From assembly GCF_024834075.1 (NCBI RefSeq), contig NZ_JANUXR010000003.1:1-64000 (forward strand): DNA of 64,000 bases, in the 5' to 3' direction. The notes under the pieces were generated by a model, which was given only the letters and a program-made list of their open reading frames with translations, did no database searches and was not told the origin of the DNA. Positions 1 through 64,000 of the stretch are shown here, one piece after another. A program made the position numbers and the translations under genes. The stretch is from Corynebacterium sp. HS2168-gen11 (GTDB lineage: Bacteria; Actinomycetota; Actinomycetes; Mycobacteriales; Mycobacteriaceae). How positions within the stretch are numbered: position 1 is the stretch's first letter; every line of letters starts with the position of its first letter.

Positions 1-116
1 GTCGGTGGTTATAGCATTGGGGGTACGCCCGGTCCCATTCCGAACCCGGAAGCTAAGCCTAATTGCGCTGATGGTACTGCAAACGGGAGTTTGTGGGAGA
101 GTAAGACACCGCCGAC
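1..116 (+). rRNA. rrf: 5S ribosomal RNA
   Basis: The sequence matches the bacterial 5S rRNA pattern, with the conserved block CCATTCCGAACCCGGAAG and a terminal helix pairing the first eight bases with the last eight. The gene starts at or within a base or two of the window edge. It is presumably the last gene of an rRNA operon whose 16S and 23S genes lie to the left. Confidence 0.93.
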
Positions 117-133
117 CTAAAACTTAAAATAAT

Positions 134-180
134 GCACGGCAGGCTCTAACAATTTTGGTTGTTAGAGCCTGCCGTGCTAT
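134..180 (+). terminator. rRNA operon terminator
   Basis: A perfect 19-bp inverted repeat (134-152 paired with 159-177, six-base loop) follows the 5S gene. The long stem directly behind an rRNA gene marks it as the operon terminator, although the following T-tract is weak. Confidence 0.85.
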
Positions 181-1034
181 ACGCATACCCATGTTGAGTA
201 CGACATTCCTTGCTACACAGTGTGTATACAAGCTAAATAGAAAATATGCAACACAATATAGACTGCTCTATTACTATTCTCAGTGGCGCCGCATTTGGTG
301 GATGTTTAGAAATTTATACGTGATGAGTACAACACTGGCATCTAACTATTTGGAATCCTTGTAGTAGGCAATGACACACCAAGCGCATGTAGTGTGTAGA
401 CATGCTGCCCCATGCGCTCGCTTGCTGAAAATCTTTTGTTGGGCTGGATCGGTTTTTAGCCATCTTGGTTGCGCTTGAAGCACTATCTTTTAACCATGAA
501 ACCATCAAGTATCAACACTGTTCACAGCCTGTGTTGTGCTTTTCAACTGCCTTCCTGTTACACAGCAGGTTGGAACACGTAGTCTTATGAGTTTCAGGTA
601 ATTGTATTGCTGAATGGATGGTTATCTTTTACGGCACGTTTGATTCAAAGGATACGCCGTTTTTTGTTTTCAACGTCGACTGTGGCGCATATACAGGAAG
701 CATGTGCAGCATGACGTGAGCGACTTTGCATCGTTGCTTATTGGTCGAACGCTGTGTATTGGCGATAACGGAGTGTCTTTCTCTCGAAAGGCTATCTGGT
801 CACTGCTACAGCGTTGTATTGCCATCGAATCGACCAACTTTAGTGAGCGATTCTTTGAGCATGTTTGACAGCCAATGCTACGGCCGCAACGCATACATAC
901 CTATGACGGTATGTTCTTATAATCGAGAAAATTTCCTTAATAGGGTAGTGCCAGTCTATTCGCAAGAAGAACCTTCTGCGGCCCACAGATCCATGTGCTT
1001 TACCTGTGAGGTATTTGACTGGCACCTCAAGGTC
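178..1034. other. Long intergenic stretch, no gene seen
   Basis: About 850 bases with only short, overlapping open frames on both strands. None has a convincing ribosome binding site, protein-like composition or recognisable motif. The stretch separates the rRNA operon from the convergent surface-protein gene. Near 634-668 a weak stem with arms ACGGC and GCCGT is followed by six Ts, which could be a terminator. Confidence 0.5.
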
Positions 1035-4000
1035 TTATGGCTTCGGACGGAACGTCGTCAGGCCAAGTCCGACCATCACAATCAAAATTAAGAGCGCAAG
1101 CGTGGTTGGAATCATTGCCGCAACCGTATTGGCAGCTTTTTCTTTTTGATGGTTCATTTTCGCGTTGCCGTGACGAATGGTCTGGCGTGGCAAACCAAGC
1201 AGCTCTGCCGTGACCTTTTGATCGGCCTTTGGCGCATTCAACAACGTCGGTGAGGTGTGTGTAGGTGAGCCTTCTGCTGAGTTCTCTGGTGAGCGCTCAC
1301 CTTCACTGTTCTCGGCAGGTTCTTGTGGGACTTCACTTTGGTTATTTTGAGTTTGTCCCTGCGCAATGTGGCGCGCCAATAAGGATCCGCCAACAGCTCC
1401 CGCACCTGCACCAGCTACCCCTCCAGCAGCGATCGGCAGCGCTGGGTTCGATCCTAGGACGCTAGGGTGAGCAGTACCTGGTCCGCCTGAATTGGTAGCA
1501 TCGCCGTTTGCCGGGCTTTGTGCAGCAGTCTGTGCCGCTGATGCGCCAAGAGCACTCACTGCTAATGCACCACCTGCAGTGCCAACTAATGTCGAGAACG
1601 CAGGTGGAACAGGGGCCTGTGTCCCTGAAGGTTTGGTGGCAGGTTCTATTACCTTTGGTCGCGTCGTAGGCTGTGCCGGTGTGCTTGGCTGAACCGGTGT
1701 AGCTGTCGGCTCATCAGGCTGGGTAGGATCAGGTTTGCTTGTCTTTCCAGGTTTCGGTTTGCCAGTCTGGCTTGGTTGTGGCTCATTCGGCCGTGTAGGT
1801 TCAGGCTTGCCAGTCTGGCCAGGTTCTGGCTTCGGCTTATCCGGCTGTGTAGCCTCCGAAGATGGTTTTGGCTGTGGCGTATGCGACGGCACAGCCTCTC
1901 CGGACGGCACCGTTGTCGTCGGTGGTGTTGTACCTGCATCTACAGAAGGATCCTTGATCCCGCAGTCTTGGCGAAGCTGCACGAGTTGATCGAGCTCAAC
2001 GCGTCGTGAAGCAAGCAGTTCAGTCTTTTCGTTGAGCAGCGTTTGCGCGTGAGTCAGTTCGGCACTGAGTCGTTGAATCTCAGTGGTCGAAGTGTCCTGC
2101 TGCGCGGTTAGCACGGCTTGTGCAAGCGCAGGATACTCTGCGAGATCAACGGTGCCTTCAATTGCAGCATCGACCGTCAGTGCTTGTAATGCCTGATTCG
2201 CCTGGAAACGCTGATCGTTTCGCAGGCTCGTGAGCTGAAGCTGGAGTTCGTTGAGGTGCAGCATCGTTTCATTGACACGGTGCAGCGCCTCATGTGTCTG
2301 TTCTTCAGTAGCGATGACGGTATTAAGCTGTTCGTGGTACTCATGCGTGTGAGGTACTTCGACCAGCAGAGCCTTGAGTTCACTGCGCTGAGTGGAAATC
2401 AGCTGCCATTGGCTGTTCAACGTGGCTTCAAGCTGGTTCAACACGGTACGCGTGGTCGCTGCATCCGTGGTCTCACCATTGGCAGTTGTGGCATCGAATC
2501 CTTGCAGCCGCAGCTCCAGAGCATCATATTCTGTGTTTAACGCATGAATATGATCCTGTAGCTGTTGGATTTTCTGTTTCCGTGCGGAAATTTGCGAAAT
2601 GAGGTCTGAAGATTCATATCGGCGAGTAAGAGCGTCAATGGTGTTCGTAAGTTCCGAACGTTCTGCAAGTAGGTTTTTGTGCACGCTGAATGCGTGATCC
2701 ACTGCTGCTTGATTGCTGTTTACTAAGGCTTGCAATGCGGAGAGGTCAGCAGTGTTTGTGCGATTGAGATTTGCAGTTAGCGTTTCAAGCTGCGACTGGA
2801 AACGTGTACTTTGCTCAGCGATATGCGTGAGTTGCTGCTCTAAGAAACGACGTTCGTGAGAGGTAACCAACGCAAGATCAAAAGCTTGTTCACCCGTCTG
2901 GATGACTGCGCCGATATGATATTGACGTCCATTCGCCGGAACATAAGATGCACTAGCGCTAGAATCATGAGTTGCTGATGTCAAACTGCGGTATTGTATG
3001 CTGCCGTCGGCAAAGTGCAAGGCTAAAGCATCAAAATCAGCAGTATCAGTTGCTGGATCACGTTCGACGCCATCACGCAGTGGGGTAGCGCTGATTAATA
3101 CATCTGTCAGTACACGATCCTGTGGTGCAAACTGCTCAGCGATTGCAGTTCGTTGTTCAGCTGAAGCATGAGGCAGCAGCAGCGCGAGATTGTGCTGTCC
3201 CCGGAAACGGAGTGCCTGCGTCTCAAGTGTCCGACTGGTTGCAAGCGGCACCAGAAAATCTTGAGCGACGCTTGTGTCTGTGAGTCCGGGAAGTAATCCT
3301 CGCACGATTGCTACTGGACCACCATCGGTGATCGAAACAGCTGGAATCAGCAAGGTTTGGTTCTGCGGGCGTTGGAGCTCTAGGAAATAGTGGTGCGGCT
3401 CGACCGTCGCACTTGGCAGTTCATGCACAATCGCCTGCGTGCGGGTATCAATAAGATGATAACCAATAAACTCCATGGAATCATCACGCTGAATTGTGCG
3501 CTCTGCTAATGAAAGATACTGCTCAACAGCGTGTTTATTGGCTTCGTTTTCGGCTAGTGCTGCTTGCACCTGACGCAATTGTGTTTCTTGCTCGTCACGA
3601 GCAGCGCCGCCTGGAGCAGCACCGTCAGTGTCAGTGCCAAGGGCGTCTGCCTGTGCTTGTTGCAATGCGGCTTGGCTTTCAAGGAGTTGCGTATTCGCAC
3701 GCTCGAGGTCGTCGACTGCTTGTGCTAATTGTTCATCGATACGCTGACGCTGCTTATCTAGCACGAGGGCCTGTTCGACGTACTCGCGGTACTCTATAGC
3801 ATCTTGGCCGTCAAGAGCCTGTTCAAGCTCCTGTAACTGAAGTTCTTCTGCTTGCAGCGTCGTTTGCGCAGCTTGCTGTTCCACTCGGAGTTGATCACGC
3901 TGCGTTTCAATCCAGATACGATCTTGCGCGCGCAGCTGTGAATAACTGTTATCTAGCGTGTTCTTCCAGTTAGCTTCAAGCGTATCGGTTGCTGATGTGT

Positions 4001-4589
4001 GCTCAGCAAGAGTAGTCAGGAGCGTCGTGATCTGTTGATATTGCTGTTGTTGCAGCTCTGAAAGCGTTGTGGTATCCACAGCTTCCAGACGTTCCTGTAA
4101 GGTTTGGCGCAGAATCGCAAGCTCATCACGAACAGTCTGACGTTGTTGCTGCAAGAGGCGAAACTCTTGCTGATGTTCATTCAATGTTTCAGTCGTGCGC
4201 TGAATCTGCTCCTCAAGGGCAGAACGTTCGCTGTGCAGAGTCTGAATCGTCTGGCGCGAAGATTCCTGGGCGCGAGAGAGCTCGTCTTGTACCGACTTTA
4301 ATAATTGCGTGCGATGCTCACTTTGGCGCAATTGCTGCAAGTGTTGCTGCAACTCGAGCGTTTGCTGTTGTGCGGTTGTGAGTTCTTGCGTAAGTGTCTG
4401 GATCGCTAAGGTTGCGCTTGTTACGCGCGTGCTTATCGACGCATCGGTGCATGCTTGTTCCCCATGCGTCGATGTGAGAGGTTGAGCTGCGGCAGGTGAG
4501 AAGGAAATAACATGTGGTGTCAACAATAGAGTGCTCACCAGACCTAAACTGAACACAGTTTTCTTGCGTGAATGTGCTGTTTGTGCCAT
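1035..4589 (-). CDS. Secreted membrane-anchored coiled-coil surface protein
   Basis: 1184 residues; family not recognised. The N-terminus has a basic start and a hydrophobic core ending near AAAQP (about residue 36), which reads as a Sec signal peptide. Residues about 50-365 and 585-870 are very rich in Q, E, L, T and A with heptad-like spacing, so two long coiled-coil arms. Between them (about 370-580) lies a segment with beta-like, globular composition. A Pro/Lys/Thr-rich stalk (about 880-995, many GKPEP-type repeats) and an Ala/Gly-rich stretch follow. A single membrane segment at about 1155-1177 and a short tail ending RPKP close the protein; no LPxTG motif is seen. I see only two cysteines, C47 and one near 874, just outside the two arms. 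Inference: an extracellular antiparallel hairpin lifted off the membrane by a proline-rich stalk. It stands alone, with no operon partner. Confidence 0.85.
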   Translation of the reverse strand: MAQTAHSRKKTVFSLGLVSTLLLTPHVISFSPAAAQPLTSTHGEQACTDASISTRVTSATLAIQTLTQELTTAQQQTLELQQHLQQLRQSEHRTQLLKSVQDELSRAQESSRQTIQTLHSERSALEEQIQRTTETLNEHQQEFRLLQQQRQTVRDELAILRQTLQERLEAVDTTTLSELQQQQYQQITTLLTTLAEHTSATDTLEANWKNTLDNSYSQLRAQDRIWIETQRDQLRVEQQAAQTTLQAEELQLQELEQALDGQDAIEYREYVEQALVLDKQRQRIDEQLAQAVDDLERANTQLLESQAALQQAQADALGTDTDGAAPGGAARDEQETQLRQVQAALAENEANKHAVEQYLSLAERTIQRDDSMEFIGYHLIDTRTQAIVHELPSATVEPHHYFLELQRPQNQTLLIPAVSITDGGPVAIVRGLLPGLTDTSVAQDFLVPLATSRTLETQALRFRGQHNLALLLPHASAEQRTAIAEQFAPQDRVLTDVLISATPLRDGVERDPATDTADFDALALHFADGSIQYRSLTSATHDSSASASYVPANGRQYHIGAVIQTGEQAFDLALVTSHERRFLEQQLTHIAEQSTRFQSQLETLTANLNRTNTADLSALQALVNSNQAAVDHAFSVHKNLLAERSELTNTIDALTRRYESSDLISQISARKQKIQQLQDHIHALNTEYDALELRLQGFDATTANGETTDAATTRTVLNQLEATLNSQWQLISTQRSELKALLVEVPHTHEYHEQLNTVIATEEQTHEALHRVNETMLHLNELQLQLTSLRNDQRFQANQALQALTVDAAIEGTVDLAEYPALAQAVLTAQQDTSTTEIQRLSAELTHAQTLLNEKTELLASRRVELDQLVQLRQDCGIKDPSVDAGTTPPTTTVPSGEAVPSHTPQPKPSSEATQPDKPKPEPGQTGKPEPTRPNEPQPSQTGKPKPGKTSKPDPTQPDEPTATPVQPSTPAQPTTRPKVIEPATKPSGTQAPVPPAFSTLVGTAGGALAVSALGASAAQTAAQSPANGDATNSGGPGTAHPSVLGSNPALPIAAGGVAGAGAGAVGGSLLARHIAQGQTQNNQSEVPQEPAENSEGERSPENSAEGSPTHTSPTLLNAPKADQKVTAELLGLPRQTIRHGNAKMNHQKEKAANTVAAMIPTTLALLILIVMVGLGLTTFRPKP

Positions 4590-8064: not shown

Positions 8065-8577
8065 ATGCCAGTAAAACTGACTATGCTTAGGGGCGTGAAA
8101 ACACAAACGCGCACTTCTGCTCCTTTGTCCCAAAGCTGGCAGTTGGTTGATCTTATTGGTTTGGCCTGCCGGTATGGGCTTGCGGCAGTGTGGATTTTTG
8201 CTGGTAGCACGAAACTTGGTCACCCAATGCAACTGGCTCAAACTATTGATGCGTACCGTATTTTTACCCAAGAATGGTCCTTTTTCTTAGCGCAACTCAT
8301 TGGGCCGCTCGAAATTGCAGGTGGTGTGATTTTGCTGCTGGGTATTGGGATACGTCCGGCTGCACGTGTGTCGCTGTATGTGCTGGTGCTTTTTATTATT
8401 GGCATTGGCCAAGCTTGGTATCGAGGATTGGTGATTGATTGTGGCTGCTTTGGTGAGCCAGATCTTGCTGATGGCGGTATGAGCTACGCGCTGACGATTG
8501 GCCGCGATTTGGTGTTGGTGGCAATGTCGATATGGACAATGCGGAGGCCGTTTACGAAGTTTGCGTTATATCCATAA
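8065..8577 (+). CDS. MauE/DoxX-family membrane protein
   Basis: About 170 residues with four predicted membrane helices. It carries the MauE-type signature VIDCGCFG between helices three and four. MauE-like proteins are often coupled to thioredoxin-fold partners and are thought to supply or relay reducing equivalents across the membrane. Here a DsbA-like protein is encoded 234 bases downstream on the same strand, which supports a redox role. The start is uncertain: ATG at 8065 and GTG at 8095 are both possible and neither has a strong binding site. Family assignment is good; the exact electron partner is inference. Confidence 0.75.
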   Translation: MPVKLTMLRGVKTQTRTSAPLSQSWQLVDLIGLACRYGLAAVWIFAGSTKLGHPMQLAQTIDAYRIFTQEWSFFLAQLIGPLEIAGGVILLLGIGIRPAARVSLYVLVLFIIGIGQAWYRGLVIDCGCFGEPDLADGGMSYALTIGRDLVLVAMSIWTMRRPFTKFALYP

Positions 8578-8735: not shown

Positions 8736-8811
8736 CCGGGAGTAGCGCGGGTAGGATGATGGTGTATAAAGCTGTGAAGCACTCCAATTTTGAATGATAA
8801 GGATGTCGAAC

Positions 8812-9522
8812 GTGAGTAAAAAAGTTACAAACCCAAATGAAAAAAGCTATGGCTTTATCATCGCCATTGTGGCCATTGTTATTCTGGCAGCGGCTGTGAT
8901 TGGTTATATTGTGACCAGCGGTAATAAAGCTGTAAGTGATAAATTTGCCAGCTTGAAGGCTGATCCTGTTGCCTTTAGCGTTTCAGTGGCTGACAATGCA
9001 GTGGAATTGAAAGCCGATTCGGTAGCTGCCGATGCACCAGTGGTTGATATCTATGAAGATTATTCCTGCCCACACTGCGCTGAGCTGGCAGAAGCAACTG
9101 ATGCGGATATGAAGCAGCTGCTTGAGGATGGCAAGGTGATTGTGCGTATTCGCAGCTTGAACTTCCTGGATCGCGATAACTTTGGGCATTCTTCGAAGGT
9201 TGGCGCAGCTGCTGAAGGCCTGGCAAAGTCGGGTAATGCTGCAGCATATTGGAACTTCCGTGCAAAGTTATTGGCAGATCAGTCCACCGCCTATGGCGTT
9301 TGGACCCCAGAAAACTTCTCTCAAATTGCTGCAGCCTACGGCGCTGATGATTCGGTAGTTGCAGACGTGAAGGATGAAGCATTTAACGACGCTTACCTTG
9401 CTTCAGCAAAGGCCAATGCAGCAAAGCTTGAAAAGGAACATGCCAAGATTTCTTCGCCACGAGTGATTATCAACGACAAGGAAGTTGAAAACCCATTCGA
9501 GTGGGTCGCTGAGATTCAGTAA
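8812..9522 (+). CDS. DsbA-family thiol oxidoreductase, membrane-anchored
   Basis: 236 residues. One N-terminal membrane segment (about residues 17-38) anchors a thioredoxin-fold domain on the outside. The active site is CPHC (C86, C89), preceded by VDIYEDYS, as in the actinobacterial DsbA/MdbA-like group that oxidises cysteines of exported proteins. The GTG at 8812 is preferred because AAGGA (8799-8803) lies eight bases upstream; the ATG at 8803 overlaps that site. The MauE-like gene upstream is a likely redox partner. Which exported proteins it serves is not visible; cysteine-containing surface proteins in this window would be candidates. Confidence 0.85.
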   Translation: MSKKVTNPNEKSYGFIIAIVAIVILAAAVIGYIVTSGNKAVSDKFASLKADPVAFSVSVADNAVELKADSVAADAPVVDIYEDYSCPHCAELAEATDADMKQLLEDGKVIVRIRSLNFLDRDNFGHSSKVGAAAEGLAKSGNAAAYWNFRAKLLADQSTAYGVWTPENFSQIAAAYGADDSVVADVKDEAFNDAYLASAKANAAKLEKEHAKISSPRVIINDKEVENPFEWVAEIQ

Positions 9523-11180: not shown

Positions 11181-11666
11181 CTAGTACACTGCATCGACTG
11201 CAGCCTGTGCCTGCTCCCGCGTGAATTTATCCCCATATTCACTCGATAGCTGATTCACTAGCTCTTCGCGGCTAAAAGGTGAGATATTCAAATAGTTTTC
11301 AGCGGCTTCGCGGGCTTCAGCATCCCAATCCGCGTCGACATTGTCTACTGCGTACTGCGCGGCTTCAGCAGGGTATTTATCTCCATATTCGCTGGTGAGC
11401 TGGTCATATAAACCTTGCTGTGAGAATCCTGAATAATCCAAGTATTGTTTTGCGGAACGTAGAGCGTTCTGATACTCGCGTGGGACTACTTCTTCTGCTT
11501 CTGCTGCTTCGGTAGATGTTTCGACAGAACCTGTAGTATCCACTTCTGTAATCGCAGGTGTATTCACCGAAGTTGTCTGATCAGATGCAGATGGCGTCGA
11601 AGCTCCGCATGCCACCAACGTTGTCATTGCACCCGCTATGATAATGACTTTTGCGTACTTGTTCAC
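11181..11666 (-). CDS. Ltp-family lipoprotein with two tandem Ltp domains
   Basis: 161 residues. The N-terminus has a signal peptide with lipobox TTLVAC (Cys20), so it is a membrane-attached lipoprotein. After a Thr/Ser/Glu-rich linker (about 22-62) come two copies of a roughly 48-residue helical domain. Each has the pattern of an A-rich helix followed by a YGDKY/F-type motif (LTSEYGDKYPAEAA and LSSEYGDKFTREQA) and an A(V)D(N/A)V end. This is the host-cell-surface-exposed lipoprotein (Ltp) domain, best known from Ltp of streptococcal phage TP-J34, which blocks phage DNA injection. In corynebacteria such proteins are often chromosomal and their role is open. The gene lies next to a mobile-element remnant, which is compatible with a phage-exclusion origin. 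Confidence 0.82.
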   Translation of the reverse strand: MNKYAKVIIIAGAMTTLVACGASTPSASDQTTSVNTPAITEVDTTGSVETSTEAAEAEEVVPREYQNALRSAKQYLDYSGFSQQGLYDQLTSEYGDKYPAEAAQYAVDNVDADWDAEAREAAENYLNISPFSREELVNQLSSEYGDKFTREQAQAAVDAVY

Positions 11667-31476: not shown

Positions 31477-32022
31477 ATGGATCCTTGGAAACGTAAAAAA
31501 GCTCTTTTCGGTGCGCCAAAATATGTGTGTACGTTGCGTGATTCCGAACGGGAAGTATTAGGCAGTCTGGCGTCAATGGTTGCTGAAGCCTTAATTGAGC
31601 GTGCGCAATCGGCACCAAAAGACGAACTTGCAGAACTCACCGGTATGCCGTCTGGGCACAAAGAAGCACCAACTGATCCAGCGCTTGCGCGACTTTTGCC
31701 TGATTTTGAGCGCCCTGGTGATGAAGAATATGAAGGCGATAATGCGTTGCTGCGCAGCCTGCATGAAACTGAAATCACTAAGGCGAAATTAGAAGGGCTG
31801 ACCACCATTACCTTTGCGTTGGGGCCGGGCGGTTCGAATGAAATCGTCTTAACTGAACCAGAAGCGCATCTGTGGTTGCGTGCGTTAAATGATATTCGCT
31901 TGTATTTGGATGCCTGCCACATCCCCGATGCGGTTGCGAAATTAGATTGTGGCAGCATCGCAGATTGGATTGGTGGCCAACAAGAAACGTTGCTTGATGT
32001 TCTGATGCGAGATTTTGAATAA
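31477..32022 (+). CDS. DUF2017 family protein
   Basis: 181 residues, all-helical appearance, cytoplasmic. DUF2017 proteins are encoded directly after clpS in many actinobacteria; their function is not established. Visible family features are the N-terminal basic WKRKKALFG, a central RLLPDFERPGD motif, and a C-terminal stretch LWLRALNDIRLYLDA. Its stop overlaps the start of the following P1 peptidase (TAATG at 32020-32024), pointing to translational coupling. The constant neighbourhood with ClpS suggests a role in regulated proteolysis, which is inference. Confidence 0.88.
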   Translation: MDPWKRKKALFGAPKYVCTLRDSEREVLGSLASMVAEALIERAQSAPKDELAELTGMPSGHKEAPTDPALARLLPDFERPGDEEYEGDNALLRSLHETEITKAKLEGLTTITFALGPGGSNEIVLTEPEAHLWLRALNDIRLYLDACHIPDAVAKLDCGSIADWIGGQQETLLDVLMRDFE

Positions 32023-33137
32023 TGAGTGGACAGCTCACAGACGTTGCAGGCATTGGTATTGCCCATCACAGCATGGGGGATACTGGCTGCACGGTCATTG
32101 TGGCACCTGAATCTGCAATTGCCGCTGTGGATGTTCGCGGTGGTGGCCCAGGTACACGCGAAACTGATTTGCTTGAGCCGCAGAATACGGTTCAACGCGT
32201 GCATGCAATTTGTTTAAGTGGCGGTTCGGCCTATGGTTTGGCAACTGCTGATGGCGTGATGGCAGCGCTGGAAGAACATGGCATTGGTTTTGCGGTTTTA
32301 GGCCCTGATACGCCAGGGCCAATTGTGCCGATTGTGCCAGCAGCAGTGATTTTCGATTTGCTGGTAGGTCAGGCTGATCATCGACCAACGCGGGAATCAG
32401 GATACTCGGCAACCTGTGAGATCCTCCGGCAATGGCCACGAGTGAGCTCGCGAGACAGCACAGCGCGTGATGCCGCAGCGCAAGACGGCACAGCGCGAGA
32501 CGGCACAGCGCGAGACGGCACAGCGCAAGATGGCACAGTGCAAGATACACAAAGTGCAGTAGCAGCACACGGTGGCATAGACCAGCTTGCCCGCAATGTG
32601 CATACGCAACCAGCATTATCGGGTTCGGTTGGAGCAGGTTGCGGCGCGACAGCAGGCGTACTGCGCGGTGGATTCGGGCAAGCTTCGCGCAAGGTCGGGC
32701 CCTATACAATTGCCGCAGGCATTGTGGCGAATCCGATGGGCAGCGTCATTGATCCTTCCACTGGCAAAAGCTGGTTTGATAGCTCGATCGCTGTGGATAT
32801 TGCAGCCTTTTCCCAGTTGCAATCGCCAATTGCGAAGTTAAATACCACAATCGGCGTGATTGTCACCGATGCTCCGATCAGTAAAGCTCAAGCGAAGCGA
32901 GTCGCAATGGTTGGCCACGATGGCATTGCGCTGGCAGTTCGCCCAGCACACGCGCCATTTGATGGGGATACATTATTTTGTCTGTCCACCGGCGACGGTC
33001 AAGGTGTGGACGTACACGTACTGCATGAGCTTTCAGCGGCGGTGTCGTATGTGGTTGCAGAGGCGATTCTTGATGCGGTGGTATCAGCAGAAAGTGGATT
33101 CGGCCAAGTATCCTTGCGTGAAATCCGCGTACAATAG
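32022..33137 (+). CDS. P1/S58-family aminopeptidase-like hydrolase (DmpA fold)
   Basis: 371 residues. DmpA-type enzymes are self-cleaving N-terminal nucleophile hydrolases acting on peptides or amides. Recognisable parts are VDVRGGGPGTRETDLL, the SGGSAYGL motif, and GSVGAGCGATAGVLRGG near the expected processing site. Many homologues carry Thr or Ser where the nucleophile lies; here the GAG-x-GA position is Cys, and I cannot tell whether it is the nucleophile. Residues about 144-176 are an insertion made of DGTAR-type pentapeptides encoded by a 15-bp repeat. The gene is coupled to DUF2017 and followed five bases later by the rhomboid gene. Confidence 0.85.
   Translation: MSGQLTDVAGIGIAHHSMGDTGCTVIVAPESAIAAVDVRGGGPGTRETDLLEPQNTVQRVHAICLSGGSAYGLATADGVMAALEEHGIGFAVLGPDTPGPIVPIVPAAVIFDLLVGQADHRPTRESGYSATCEILRQWPRVSSRDSTARDAAAQDGTARDGTARDGTAQDGTVQDTQSAVAAHGGIDQLARNVHTQPALSGSVGAGCGATAGVLRGGFGQASRKVGPYTIAAGIVANPMGSVIDPSTGKSWFDSSIAVDIAAFSQLQSPIAKLNTTIGVIVTDAPISKAQAKRVAMVGHDGIALAVRPAHAPFDGDTLFCLSTGDGQGVDVHVLHELSAAVSYVVAEAILDAVVSAESGFGQVSLREIRVQ
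32452..32550 (+). repeat. In-frame 15-bp tandem repeat inside the P1 peptidase gene
   Basis: Six units of the type GAGACGGCACAGCGC run from 32452 to 32541, with a partial seventh. Two adjacent copies (32497-32526) are identical. The 15-base period keeps the frame and encodes a DGTAR-like run, so copy number could vary without breaking the protein. Confidence 0.9.
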
Positions 33138-53457: not shown

Positions 53458-54159
53458 CTATTTTTCGCAGGCAACGCCATCACCGTCACGGTCCAAGCCA
53501 GGCCGATAGCCTGGGTCACCGATATACAGTGGTGCAGCACCAACAGCCTTCGCAATCTTGCAATTAGCGTAATAAGTCTGCTCCACTGGTGCTGGGATAG
53601 GAACTTCTGGCGCAGGCGCAGGCGCTGGCGCAGGTGCTGGAGCAGGTGGGGGTACGGCTGCTGGCACGACTGGCGGTGCTACTGGTGGGTCCACAGGTGG
53701 AGGCGGTGTTACTTGTTGTTCCACGATAGTTGGTGGAGCAGGAGGCTTTTGTAGAGGAGATTCCGGCGTAGGCGCTGATGAATCTACATGAGTTGGTGAA
53801 GTTTGCGGTGATGGTTCAGTGCTGCTAACACGTGTGGTACTGCTAACACGGCTGGTACTGCTAACACGGCTGGTGCTGCTAGCACGGCTGGTGCTGCTGG
53901 CACGTGTGGTGCTGATGACACGACTGGTGCTGTTGGCCGAAGTTTTCGATATTAGCGTATTCGTAGTGGTTCTTGATGGCTTAGAATCAGCAGAGATAGC
54001 TACAGATGTTGATGGAAGCGCGCTTGTCTCAGCCGTAGCGTCTGAATATTCAAGATCTCCACAGGCTGTGAGGGTGAGGATACAGAAAAGACTACCGGCG
54101 AGAATGCGAATCGGAGTGCGTCGTAAAGCAGTAGGGGGCTGGTGCAGGGTTGCGAGCAT
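53458..54159 (-). CDS. Lipoprotein with Ser/Thr/Pro-rich stalk and Excalibur domain
   Basis: 233 residues. The lipobox LTLTAC gives a membrane-attached lipoprotein. Residues about 60-115 are an STSRVS-type repeat region, then a long proline-rich stalk (about 115-195, many PAP and PPP). The C-terminal 40 residues are an Excalibur calcium-binding domain: NCKIAKAVGAAPL, then GDPGYRPGLDRDGDGVACE with the DxDxDGxxCE-like loop. AAGGAT precedes the ATG at 54159. It probably displays a small calcium-binding module outside the cell, for which the ligand or function is unknown. Confidence 0.85.
   Translation of the reverse strand: MLATLHQPPTALRRTPIRILAGSLFCILTLTACGDLEYSDATAETSALPSTSVAISADSKPSRTTTNTLISKTSANSTSRVISTTRASSTSRASSTSRVSSTSRVSSTTRVSSTEPSPQTSPTHVDSSAPTPESPLQKPPAPPTIVEQQVTPPPPVDPPVAPPVVPAAVPPPAPAPAPAPAPAPEVPIPAPVEQTYYANCKIAKAVGAAPLYIGDPGYRPGLDRDGDGVACEK
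53818..53930 (-). repeat. 18-bp coding tandem repeat in the Excalibur lipoprotein
   Basis: Units of the type GTACTGCTAACACGGCTG recur about five to six times on the plus strand, encoding S-R-V-S-S-T on the minus strand. The period is a multiple of three, so stalk length can vary in frame. Confidence 0.8.
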
Positions 54160-61216: not shown

Positions 61217-64000
61217 TTAGCGCTTCAGGCCACCAAGTGCCTTGAGGCTATTGAACAGGTGCATATTCACTGCAGCAAGTACGCCACCGATGACGGATAC
61301 GGCAGTAATCAATGCAATCAGAATCTTGTTCAGCGTATCATTCTTGCTGACCGTTGGAACCTGTACGACCTTTTCAACCTCGACGACCTTTTCAACTTCG
61401 ACAATCTTGGTTTCACCAGGTACCACGATAGTCGTTGGTACTTCGACAATCTTGGTTTCGCCTGGAACTTCGACCGTGATCACCTTTGGTGGTTCAGCAG
61501 GAGCTTCTGGTGTAGTCGTTGGCTGTTCCGAGTGTGGACGGATGGTGAAGCTTTGTGCAGCTTGCGAATCATCGAAGACTGCGGTGGTTGGGCCGGAGTT
61601 TACAAAGCGTGCAGTTACTGTGAACTGAACCTCGTCTTGCAGGATCTGTCCAAGTGGAGCAACCGGAATGACAGCAGTTGCGATACCTTCAGCGTCAGTT
61701 GTGCCAGTAATCGTCTTACCATCGGAGGTTACGAATTCGACGGTTTCGCCAGCCATTGGTTGGCCGTCGCGCTGCAGGCGTGCCGTTGCGACAACCGAAT
61801 TGTTTTCTACGGTACCTGCGAACTTATCGCTCAGCTTGCCCAGCGTCAAAACGGTGGTGCCGGCAAGATGCTCACGTGGAAGGACTGTGAACTCACCGAA
61901 TCCATCGACGGCGCGGTATCCATTATCACGAGTAAATGGTCGTGCAACCAGTGTGTGCTTCACAGGATTTTCACCAGCTTCAACGGCTGGAACAGTGACG
62001 TTGAGGGAGACTGCGCCGTTGGTGATAGCTGCATCTTCGACCAATTCGCCATCAAGATAGACCGCTACAGTGGCAGTATCTGGAATGGTTTGGTTGCTGG
62101 ATGCTACCTTCACAGAAACTGGAACCGTGACAGTATCGGCTTCGGTAGATGCAACGGTACCGATCGGATCAACCGTTGCCGTCACAATTTCTGGCAATAC
62201 TGTTGGGATCAAGCTCGTTGGATCAGGCACGACCGTGACACGTGGAGTGGTCATCTCTTGAGTCGTGGTTGCACGAGTCGTTGCGTCTTGGAATGACCAG
62301 TTCGCCGTGGTCTCATGGAAACCTCTGGTCAAATCTTCGGCGGTGATGGTGTGCGTTGCCGTGCGGCAGACATCGATACGGTTACGGAATACACTCCAAC
62401 GGCAGTTTGGCGTGCCAGGAGGGGCAAAGCCTTGCATGTCAGAGCCAGAAGGTGTTACGGAAATATTGTGGCCAGTTGGGTTCACAATGGTGATTTCGTA
62501 TTCAACGCGATCGCCCACGCGCCACTCATTATTCTTCTTTGGATTCTTAATGCCAACGAAGGCGGTCGGTACGGTGACTGTCTCGTCCCAGTACGTGCCA
62601 AGTGGGGCTACTGTGGACTGGGAGTTGTAGAGTTCAGCTTCGATCGCACCTAATGCACTCGAACGACCATCTGGTACAGCGATATAGACTGCATTCACAC
62701 CATTGACACCGTCGATAGGCGCATTCAAGGTGATGTTTACAACTGTGGATTCGCCTGGTGCCAAGCTAATCTCACTTGGATCTGCAGTTGCGGTCCAGTC
62801 TGCTGGCAAACCGAATTCAAGCGCTTGCTTGAAAATTGGGCGAGCGGTGGAGTTCGTCAAAGTAACTGGCAAGGTAACACTATCGCCTGCAGCTACGCGA
62901 GTCTTTGCATTGTCCAACGTCAAGCAGGAAGCGCCGAACCATGCCATGTTGAACTTTGCGAAGCGAATATCATATCCGCCAGAACGGTTGATCTCGTAGA
63001 GCATACCGATATTGCCGTCTTTCAACGTGGTCATATTGGTATATTCCGTTGATCCAGCACGGAACTCCTTGGCAATTGGCCAAGTTTGACCATCGTCGCA
63101 GGACATGCGGATGGTGCCCTTGTTACGAGTAGCAGGGTTGCTGGAGTTCGAGAACAGCAAAACCTTTGCTAGAGCGGAACCTTCTGGTGCGTTTGGATAT
63201 GCACGAATAATAGAAGCGTTATTGCGAGGGTCTGGCAAGCGTGGATCAAGTACTGGATCTGTCCAGTTCACGCCGCCGTCATAAGAATAGGAAATCTTAC
63301 GTGCAGTTTCACTGCGGTTGGAAGAACGAGAGTTGTTCATCAGCACGCCGTTGGACAGCTCGACGATCTTGTTCTCGTCCATGCCTTGTCCCCAAGGATT
63401 TGATGCATACCAATCTTCGCCGTGGTTATCAGAAATCCATGCAACCGTCCTCCATTGATTATTGTTGGTGAGAATCATGGCTGGTTGGATCAGGCGTCCC
63501 TTATGTGGACCATAGTTCAGCTGAATGCCGTTACCAGAGGTTGCGAAGCGAGCACGCCAAGAAGGATCAGGAGTGATTTCGCGGGTGATAACGTTGTCGT
63601 ACTTCCAGGTCACGCCGCCATCTTTAGACTTTGCATAAACAGCCTGAATGACATCGCGGTTGTTATGTTCGGTACCTGCATGCGAACGCACCAGACCTTG
63701 GCGGAAGGACTTCACATGGAAGTTAAAAATGGTGCCAGTTTCGCGGTCGACGATATAGGAAGGGTCCGAGAAGCCGACAGGCTCGTTGCCGGTCACACCA
63801 GGTGCGATGTTGGTGAGAGCAGACCACGTCTCACCGCTGTCATTGGAGCGACGCTGCACAATGGAGTTTGGGTTTGGAGCGTCGTTACAGTTGTTTGGAC
63901 GTCCGTCATACGATGCCAACAGCGTGCCATCAGGTGCGGTATTGAGCGCTGGAATGCGGTAGCAGCTAAAACCATCGCCGGACTGGGCAATGAATTCATC
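61217..64000 (-). CDS. nanH: Exo-alpha-sialidase, membrane-anchored (5' end outside window)
   Basis: At least 927 residues; the frame is open to the window edge, so the N-terminus is missing. The visible start holds the FRIP-type motif as YRIPALNTAPDGTLLASYDG. Five Asp-boxes follow: SNDSGETW, SKDGGVTW, SDNHGEDW, SYDGGVNW and SCDDGQTW, the sialidase beta-propeller. After it come a NEW3-like domain (about 62700-62900), further beta domains with FRNRIDVCRTATHTI, and a Big_1-like repeat (GQPMAGETVEFVTSDG). A Pro/Thr and Val/Glu-rich stalk with VEVEKVVEVEKVV and one membrane helix (ILIALITAVSVIGGVLAAV) end the protein in a basic tail. It would release sialic acid from host glycans at the cell surface. 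Confidence 0.94.
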   Translation of the reverse strand, partial: DEFIAQSGDGFSCYRIPALNTAPDGTLLASYDGRPNNCNDAPNPNSIVQRRSNDSGETWSALTNIAPGVTGNEPVGFSDPSYIVDRETGTIFNFHVKSFRQGLVRSHAGTEHNNRDVIQAVYAKSKDGGVTWKYDNVITREITPDPSWRARFATSGNGIQLNYGPHKGRLIQPAMILTNNNQWRTVAWISDNHGEDWYASNPWGQGMDENKIVELSNGVLMNNSRSSNRSETARKISYSYDGGVNWTDPVLDPRLPDPRNNASIIRAYPNAPEGSALAKVLLFSNSSNPATRNKGTIRMSCDDGQTWPIAKEFRAGSTEYTNMTTLKDGNIGMLYEINRSGGYDIRFAKFNMAWFGASCLTLDNAKTRVAAGDSVTLPVTLTNSTARPIFKQALEFGLPADWTATADPSEISLAPGESTVVNITLNAPIDGVNGVNAVYIAVPDGRSSALGAIEAELYNSQSTVAPLGTYWDETVTVPTAFVGIKNPKKNNEWRVGDRVEYEITIVNPTGHNISVTPSGSDMQGFAPPGTPNCRWSVFRNRIDVCRTATHTITAEDLTRGFHETTANWSFQDATTRATTTQEMTTPRVTVVPDPTSLIPTVLPEIVTATVDPIGTVASTEADTVTVPVSVKVASSNQTIPDTATVAVYLDGELVEDAAITNGAVSLNVTVPAVEAGENPVKHTLVARPFTRDNGYRAVDGFGEFTVLPREHLAGTTVLTLGKLSDKFAGTVENNSVVATARLQRDGQPMAGETVEFVTSDGKTITGTTDAEGIATAVIPVAPLGQILQDEVQFTVTARFVNSGPTTAVFDDSQAAQSFTIRPHSEQPTTTPEAPAEPPKVITVEVPGETKIVEVPTTIVVPGETKIVEVEKVVEVEKVVQVPTVSKNDTLNKILIALITAVSVIGGVLAAVNMHLFNSLKALGGLKR

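Follow-up and report, generated by a model that had tools for sequence, protein, structure and literature searches.

Described proteins that come close to the one considered here include the M26 peptidases (IgA1 protease/ZmpA, ZmpB and ZmpC), the antigen I/II proteins (SpaP, SspB) and the SMC/Rad50 proteins. In IgA1 protease, the domain table of PMC9637739 places the beta-helical NTD2 at residues 1025–1340 and the middle domain (MD) after it at 1341–1854, while in the excerpt on IgA1 binding in PMC7695701 the Fab of IgA1 is bound by the NTD and its Fc by the CTD. Antigen I/II proteins raise a globular domain on a fold-back stalk; in S. mutans SpaP, according to the section on it in PMC7732690, the V-domain is raised more than 50 nm above the cell. 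SMC and Rad50 proteins follow an arm-globule-arm plan. Here we describe a gene at positions 1035–4589 (minus strand) of a 64,000-nucleotide stretch of Corynebacterium sp. HS2168-gen11 (contig NZ_JANUXR010000003.1, positions 1 to 64,000; hereafter the window). Its frame is open from ATG to stop and encodes 1184 amino acids, hereafter the hairpin protein after its predicted plan. A predicted signal peptide, a long arm predicted to be helical, a globular tip, a second such arm, a proline-rich stalk and a predicted C-terminal membrane helix follow one another in it, and part of the tip is homologous to M26 peptidases. We favour, at roughly 55%, the reading that this is an exported, membrane-anchored protein whose arms pair antiparallel into one rod closed by a disulfide at its foot, with a protease-less, M26-derived tip serving as a ligand-binding head ~45 nm out.

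Comparison with described proteins

No Pfam family matched the whole protein at E 1, and NCBIfam gave six matches, all weak and of coiled-coil type; the SMC match reached 27 bits against a cut-off of 567, as coiled coils often do, and was rejected. For the C-terminal 154 residues four family matches were reported, every one below its cut-off. A single-sequence search of the PDB returned three matches only (E 0.4–0.8), which were judged to be chance. When the tip region (residues 365–595) was compared with 5.8 billion proteins, one match was obtained at E 1e-3 among 2688 candidates. This relative (P0002, 1164 aa) is 65% identical overall and keeps the entire plan.

The earlier note on this DNA had likened the layout to SMC/Rad50 proteins. 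The arm-globule-arm shape stands, and a low-confidence AlphaFold2 model has arms that can be aligned with those of Smc and Rad50 along both strands; the rest of the likeness does not hold. The hairpin protein is predicted to be exported, and its chain ends are a signal peptide and a stalk with a membrane helix rather than ATPase head halves. An SMC hinge found no Pfam match at E 1, the middle matching M26 instead, and a Rad50 CXXC zinc hook is excluded, there being no cysteine between residues 48 and 875.

The fold-back stalk of antigen I/II offers another parallel. In the parts of the source that describe it, an alanine-rich and a proline-rich arm wind together to form that stalk, with LPXTG as the anchor. 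In the hairpin protein, by contrast, both arms are predicted to be helical, the proline-rich part comes after them, a predicted membrane helix serves as anchor and the tip is related to M26; intertwined alanine- and proline-rich arms of the antigen I/II type were not found, the arms being predicted helical and the protein giving no Pfam match at E 1. The phage-receptor and type VII secretion proteins YueB/Pip/EsaA, as outlined in the excerpt of PMC9863714 that covers them, have an N-terminal and several C-terminal membrane helices, unlike the hairpin protein, in which a predicted signal peptide and one strong C-terminal helix, preceded by two weaker Gly/Ala stretches, were found.

Coiled-coil surface fibres are known, as are fold-back stalks and M26 proteins; their combination was not found among the literature titles and abstract openings listed. 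Neither the whole layout nor an M26 module without a protease was described among those listed. The statement of the earlier note that it knew no described family with this layout holds for the whole, within the search made and with no Pfam family at E 1. It does not hold for the tip, given its homology with the beginning of the middle domain in M26 proteins.

The tip and the M26 peptidases

The tip (residues 368–576; 2862..3488, minus strand) is a mixed strand/helix segment in the model and is 67% identical in P0002. The profile search of this domain that the earlier note had proposed led to the M26 peptidases. Searched with a profile of the two tips, the 177,635 PDB sequences gave two IgA1 metalloproteases as the top two matches (E 0.003 and 0.007), tip residues ~457–555 being aligned with 7uvk 1358–1456. 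That interval lies within MD, right after NTD2, so the tip match falls at the beginning of the M26 middle domain. In the reverse direction, a profile of M26 proteins (reduced to 14 at 85% identity) scored 22.6 bits on P0002 and 17.0 bits on the hairpin protein, compared with 5.3 bits for the best of 1000 shuffles; among the 258 open reading frames of the window the hairpin protein alone stood out (17.0 vs 1.1 bits). Profile-profile comparison of the module with M26 by hhalign gave 96.2% probability (E 2.3e-9, score 57.3), whereas 200 column shuffles reached 17.6 at most. We conclude from these sequence comparisons that tip residues ~455–540 and the opening part of the middle domain of M26 proteins are homologous. 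The likeness in sequence and predicted fold extends over ~425–555 (2925..3317, minus strand); unlike in the M26 proteins, the module here stands between coiled-coil arms.

Two Enterococcus hirae M26 proteins, two of the three records found with a sequence fragment and their identity checked by Pfam, matched at the corresponding place (10.7 and 3.5 bits, one of these weak). Both match Peptidase_M26_C (7.6e-137 and 1.2e-132) and carry M26_C, M26_N, Glug, G5 and YSIRK models, and in both the middle domain begins in a gap left uncovered between Pfam M26_N and M26_C (PF05342 / PF07580). The silence of Pfam on the tip follows from this gap, and protease-less carriers of the module may go unannotated for the same reason. 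NCBIfam gave no match on the tip, and the one family match named for it in Pfam, DUF7311 (E 0.013), fell below its cut-off (16.5 vs 27 bits). A plasmid tblastn with the tip returned five weak records (E 4 to 10); the two of these five that were inspected showed hypothetical proteins in the vicinity of type I restriction genes, and the matches were set down to chance.

The N-terminal beta part of the tip (residues 371–424; 3318..3479, minus strand) was placed identically on M26 NTD1 in three MAFFT modes, but hhalign gave a score of 18.8 at 4% probability, a value reached by 1 of 200 column shuffles, and the HMM score of 0.4 bits lies below the best shuffles; a resemblance of this segment to NTD1 is suggestive only. 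Between the candidate NTD1-like and module segments (388–422 and 455–541) lie ~32 residues, and NTD2, a beta-helical gating domain that takes up ~300 residues at the corresponding place in G. haemolysans according to the domain table of PMC9637739, was not found there.

The catalytic HEMTH...E region (Pfam Peptidase_M26_C) had no match in the hairpin protein at E 1, nor had the M26_N, Glug, G5 and YSIRK models. An active, divergent M26-like enzyme would use HEALH at residues 766–770 in arm 2 as its zinc site. We regard this as highly improbable. In its favour, the hairpin protein and P0002 share an HEXXH motif, and the tip is related to M26. Against it, the motif is part of a long arm 2 helix in the model, ~210 residues away from the M26-like module, M26_C is unmatched, and one chance HEXXH is, by our estimate, not rare at such length and composition. 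HEALH is likely a chance motif. Proteolysis by the M26 mechanism is very unlikely, since no catalytic region or beta-helix was found in the sequence. Separately, HEALH (2280–2294, minus strand) sits inside the run HEALHRVNETMLHLNE, an unusually conserved run that is identical in P0002.

Proposed pairing of the two arms

Arm 1 (residues 48–367; 3489..4448, minus strand) and arm 2 (residues 577–875; 1965..2861, minus strand) are predicted to consist of long helices. In the low-confidence model these span 49–169, 178–258, 263–321 and 328–367 on the arm 1 side, with breaks at 170–177, 259–262 and 322–327, and 577–609, 616–659, 662–703, 710–743, 749–811, 820–830 and 833–875 on the arm 2 side, with breaks at 610–615, 660–661, 704–709, 744–748, 812–819 and 831–832. 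The resulting lengths, about 320 and 299 residues for the arms and about 209 for the middle, compare with the 315, 285 and 210 read earlier from the sequence. The arms contain 1 and 2 prolines, and identity to P0002 is nearly equal in arm 1 (68%), tip (67%) and arm 2 (66%). Core residues showed heptad-type periodicity (best period 3.3–3.84) that was significant at p<0.05 in 8 of 22 arm 1 windows and 9 of 20 arm 2 windows, compared with 0 of 14 in the tip. These counts refer to the hairpin protein alone (window starts 37–331, 569–835 and 373–555, respectively) and omit the two windows that straddle the border of arm 1 with the tip as well as the four from 849 on.

The protein has exactly two cysteines, both kept in P0002: Cys47 at the foot of arm 1 (4449..4451, minus strand) and Cys876 at the foot of arm 2 (1962..1964, minus strand). 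The low-confidence full model could be aligned to the B. subtilis Smc arm across both arm feet (model 50..872); 10 of 50 rows in its structural comparison with SMC/Rad50 span both feet, 2 of those under 10 Å. Because of the conserved cysteines at the outer arm ends and this foot-to-foot alignability, an antiparallel hairpin is likely the better reading of the modelled arms. The full-chain prediction, which does recover the segment plan in its secondary structure, has a predicted local distance difference test (pLDDT) score of only 42.5 overall. Mirror tests of arm pairing gave a mixed outcome: with mirrored helix-break propensity and the raw core profile, no antiparallel register near the cysteines was favoured and the parallel maxima were higher. 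The antiparallel rod of the earlier note is preferred though not proven, and the register check that the note proposed yielded periodicity in both arms.

Those same tests count towards a rival reading, a parallel oligomeric fibre: each arm would belong to a dimeric or trimeric parallel coiled coil, the tip would lie in the middle of the rod, and the cysteines would join the chains at either end. The periodicity is genuine in both arms, parallel coiled-coil fibres such as M proteins are a common surface design, and NCBIfam pneumo_PspA matches weakly at 587–965 (32.3 bits against a cut-off of 850, too low for a family assignment). On the other hand, a foot-to-foot alignment of the full model with the Smc arm is possible, and near-equal arms with exactly two cysteines at their ends are more simply explained by one closed hairpin. 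We consider the parallel fibre unlikely, while giving it more weight than the other alternatives.

An MdbA-type thiol-disulfide oxidoreductase, a separate protein, is encoded at 8794..9522 (plus strand; PDB 5c00 'MdbA protein' E 3.7e-50; Thioredoxin_4), and could make the proposed C47–C876 disulfide. A gene for a MauE/DoxX membrane protein lies just upstream of it at 8065–8577; its product may be a redox partner.

Predicted export and anchoring, and proposed function

The signal peptide (residues 1–36; 4482..4589, minus strand) was predicted by direct reading: an RKK n-region, a hydrophobic core (hydropathy windows starting at 10–17) and AAA before Q36, 83% identical in P0002. The stalk (residues 879–995; 1605..1955, minus strand) is coil in the model and proline makes up 26% of residues 876–1000; it is less conserved than the arms and tip (45% identical in P0002, 17 residues gapped). 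It is followed by a Gly/Ala-rich region defined by hydropathy (residues 996–1077; 1359..1604, minus strand; 66% identity in P0002), whose two moderately hydrophobic stretches (996–1019 and 1049–1072), conserved in P0002, possibly contact the membrane, and by a conserved juxtamembrane segment (residues 1113–1143; 1161..1253, minus strand; 74% identity). The predicted membrane helix (residues ~1155–1179; 1053..1127, minus strand) coincides with the hydropathy peak (19-residue windows starting at 1155–1159, mean about 2.3–2.5) and ends in the tail FRPKP; the low-confidence model has coil after arm 2 and then a helix at 1163–1174. Signal peptide, stalk and membrane helix were all proposed in the earlier note and are borne out by these predictions. 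No LPXTG motif occurs in the translation, only GLPRQT in the juxtamembrane segment, about 17 residues before the C-terminal helix.

In the proposed mechanism, Sec would export the protein, MdbA-type oxidation would link C47 to C876 after the chain folds back, the C-terminal helix would keep the protein in the plasma membrane, the proline-rich stalk would span the wall, and the rod would raise the tip beyond the envelope to grip a partner. A hairpin could instead stay under the outer lipid layer as a tether or regulator that spaces or regulates wall enzymes, as the RipA helical domain might. This seems quite unlikely: the structural match counted for it has a very poor root-mean-square deviation, a stalk of ~117 residues and a 45 nm rod would exceed the need inside the envelope, and in tip relatives with named domains YSIRK signals occur together with G5 domains, as is typical of wall proteins that are exported. 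For an exposed rod, a putative binding head, as in antigen I/II, is by analogy the most economical functional reading. IgA binding by the tip module has no direct support, the IgA1 contacts described for IgA1 protease being those of NTD and CTD. A bolder version, in which a piece of the IgA-protease scaffold that has lost protease and beta-helix caps the turn of a disulfide-closed extracellular hairpin of SMC shape, as a new class of surface rod whose head, a repurposed peptidase module, binds a host or microbial glycoprotein, is tentative and less likely than not.

Counted from the contig end, the gene is the first long one; it is convergent with an rRNA operon, whose 5S rRNA (1–117, plus strand) opens the window, and two CrcB genes lie upstream of it. 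It was the sole match reported in its own 2.13-Mb genome (26 contigs). Two scans of genome contigs with two peptide patterns each found no relative; they are insensitive, with near relatives possibly left out. The C-terminal region (1110–1184) had no match at E 10 among 83 candidates, an unreliable negative, as P0002 shares the region yet was not returned. Other genes of the window, named from their translations without a family scan, presumably encode ribonucleotide reductase, cytochrome oxidase subunit I, SerB and type I fatty acid synthase; their order, together with the MdbA match, would suit Corynebacterium.

Several other products look exported or repetitive. A sialidase-like protein (61217–64000, minus strand, running off the window; BNR_2 E 3.6e-17) has, on reading its sequence, a C-terminal hydrophobic helix and VEKVVEV repeats, an anchor style resembling that of the hairpin protein. 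A small lipoprotein-like protein (11181–11666, minus strand) has two Ltp stretches (PF07553, 8.9e-39; host cell surface-exposed lipoprotein family), the protein at 32022–33137 (plus strand) carries the short-repeat run DGTARDGTARDGTAQDGTVQD, and an exported-looking protein with Ser/Thr and Pro repeats (53458–54159, minus strand) ends in a putative excalibur-like calcium motif.

If the proposed reading is true, the start of the M26 middle domain would be a mobile module, able to fold and function independently of the protease. It would then offer a handle on the role of this module in IgA1 proteases, where the portions of the sources at hand give no ligand for this part. The hairpin protein would also be an all-helical, disulfide-stapled counterpart to the helix and polyproline solution of antigen I/II for holding a small domain far from the cell.
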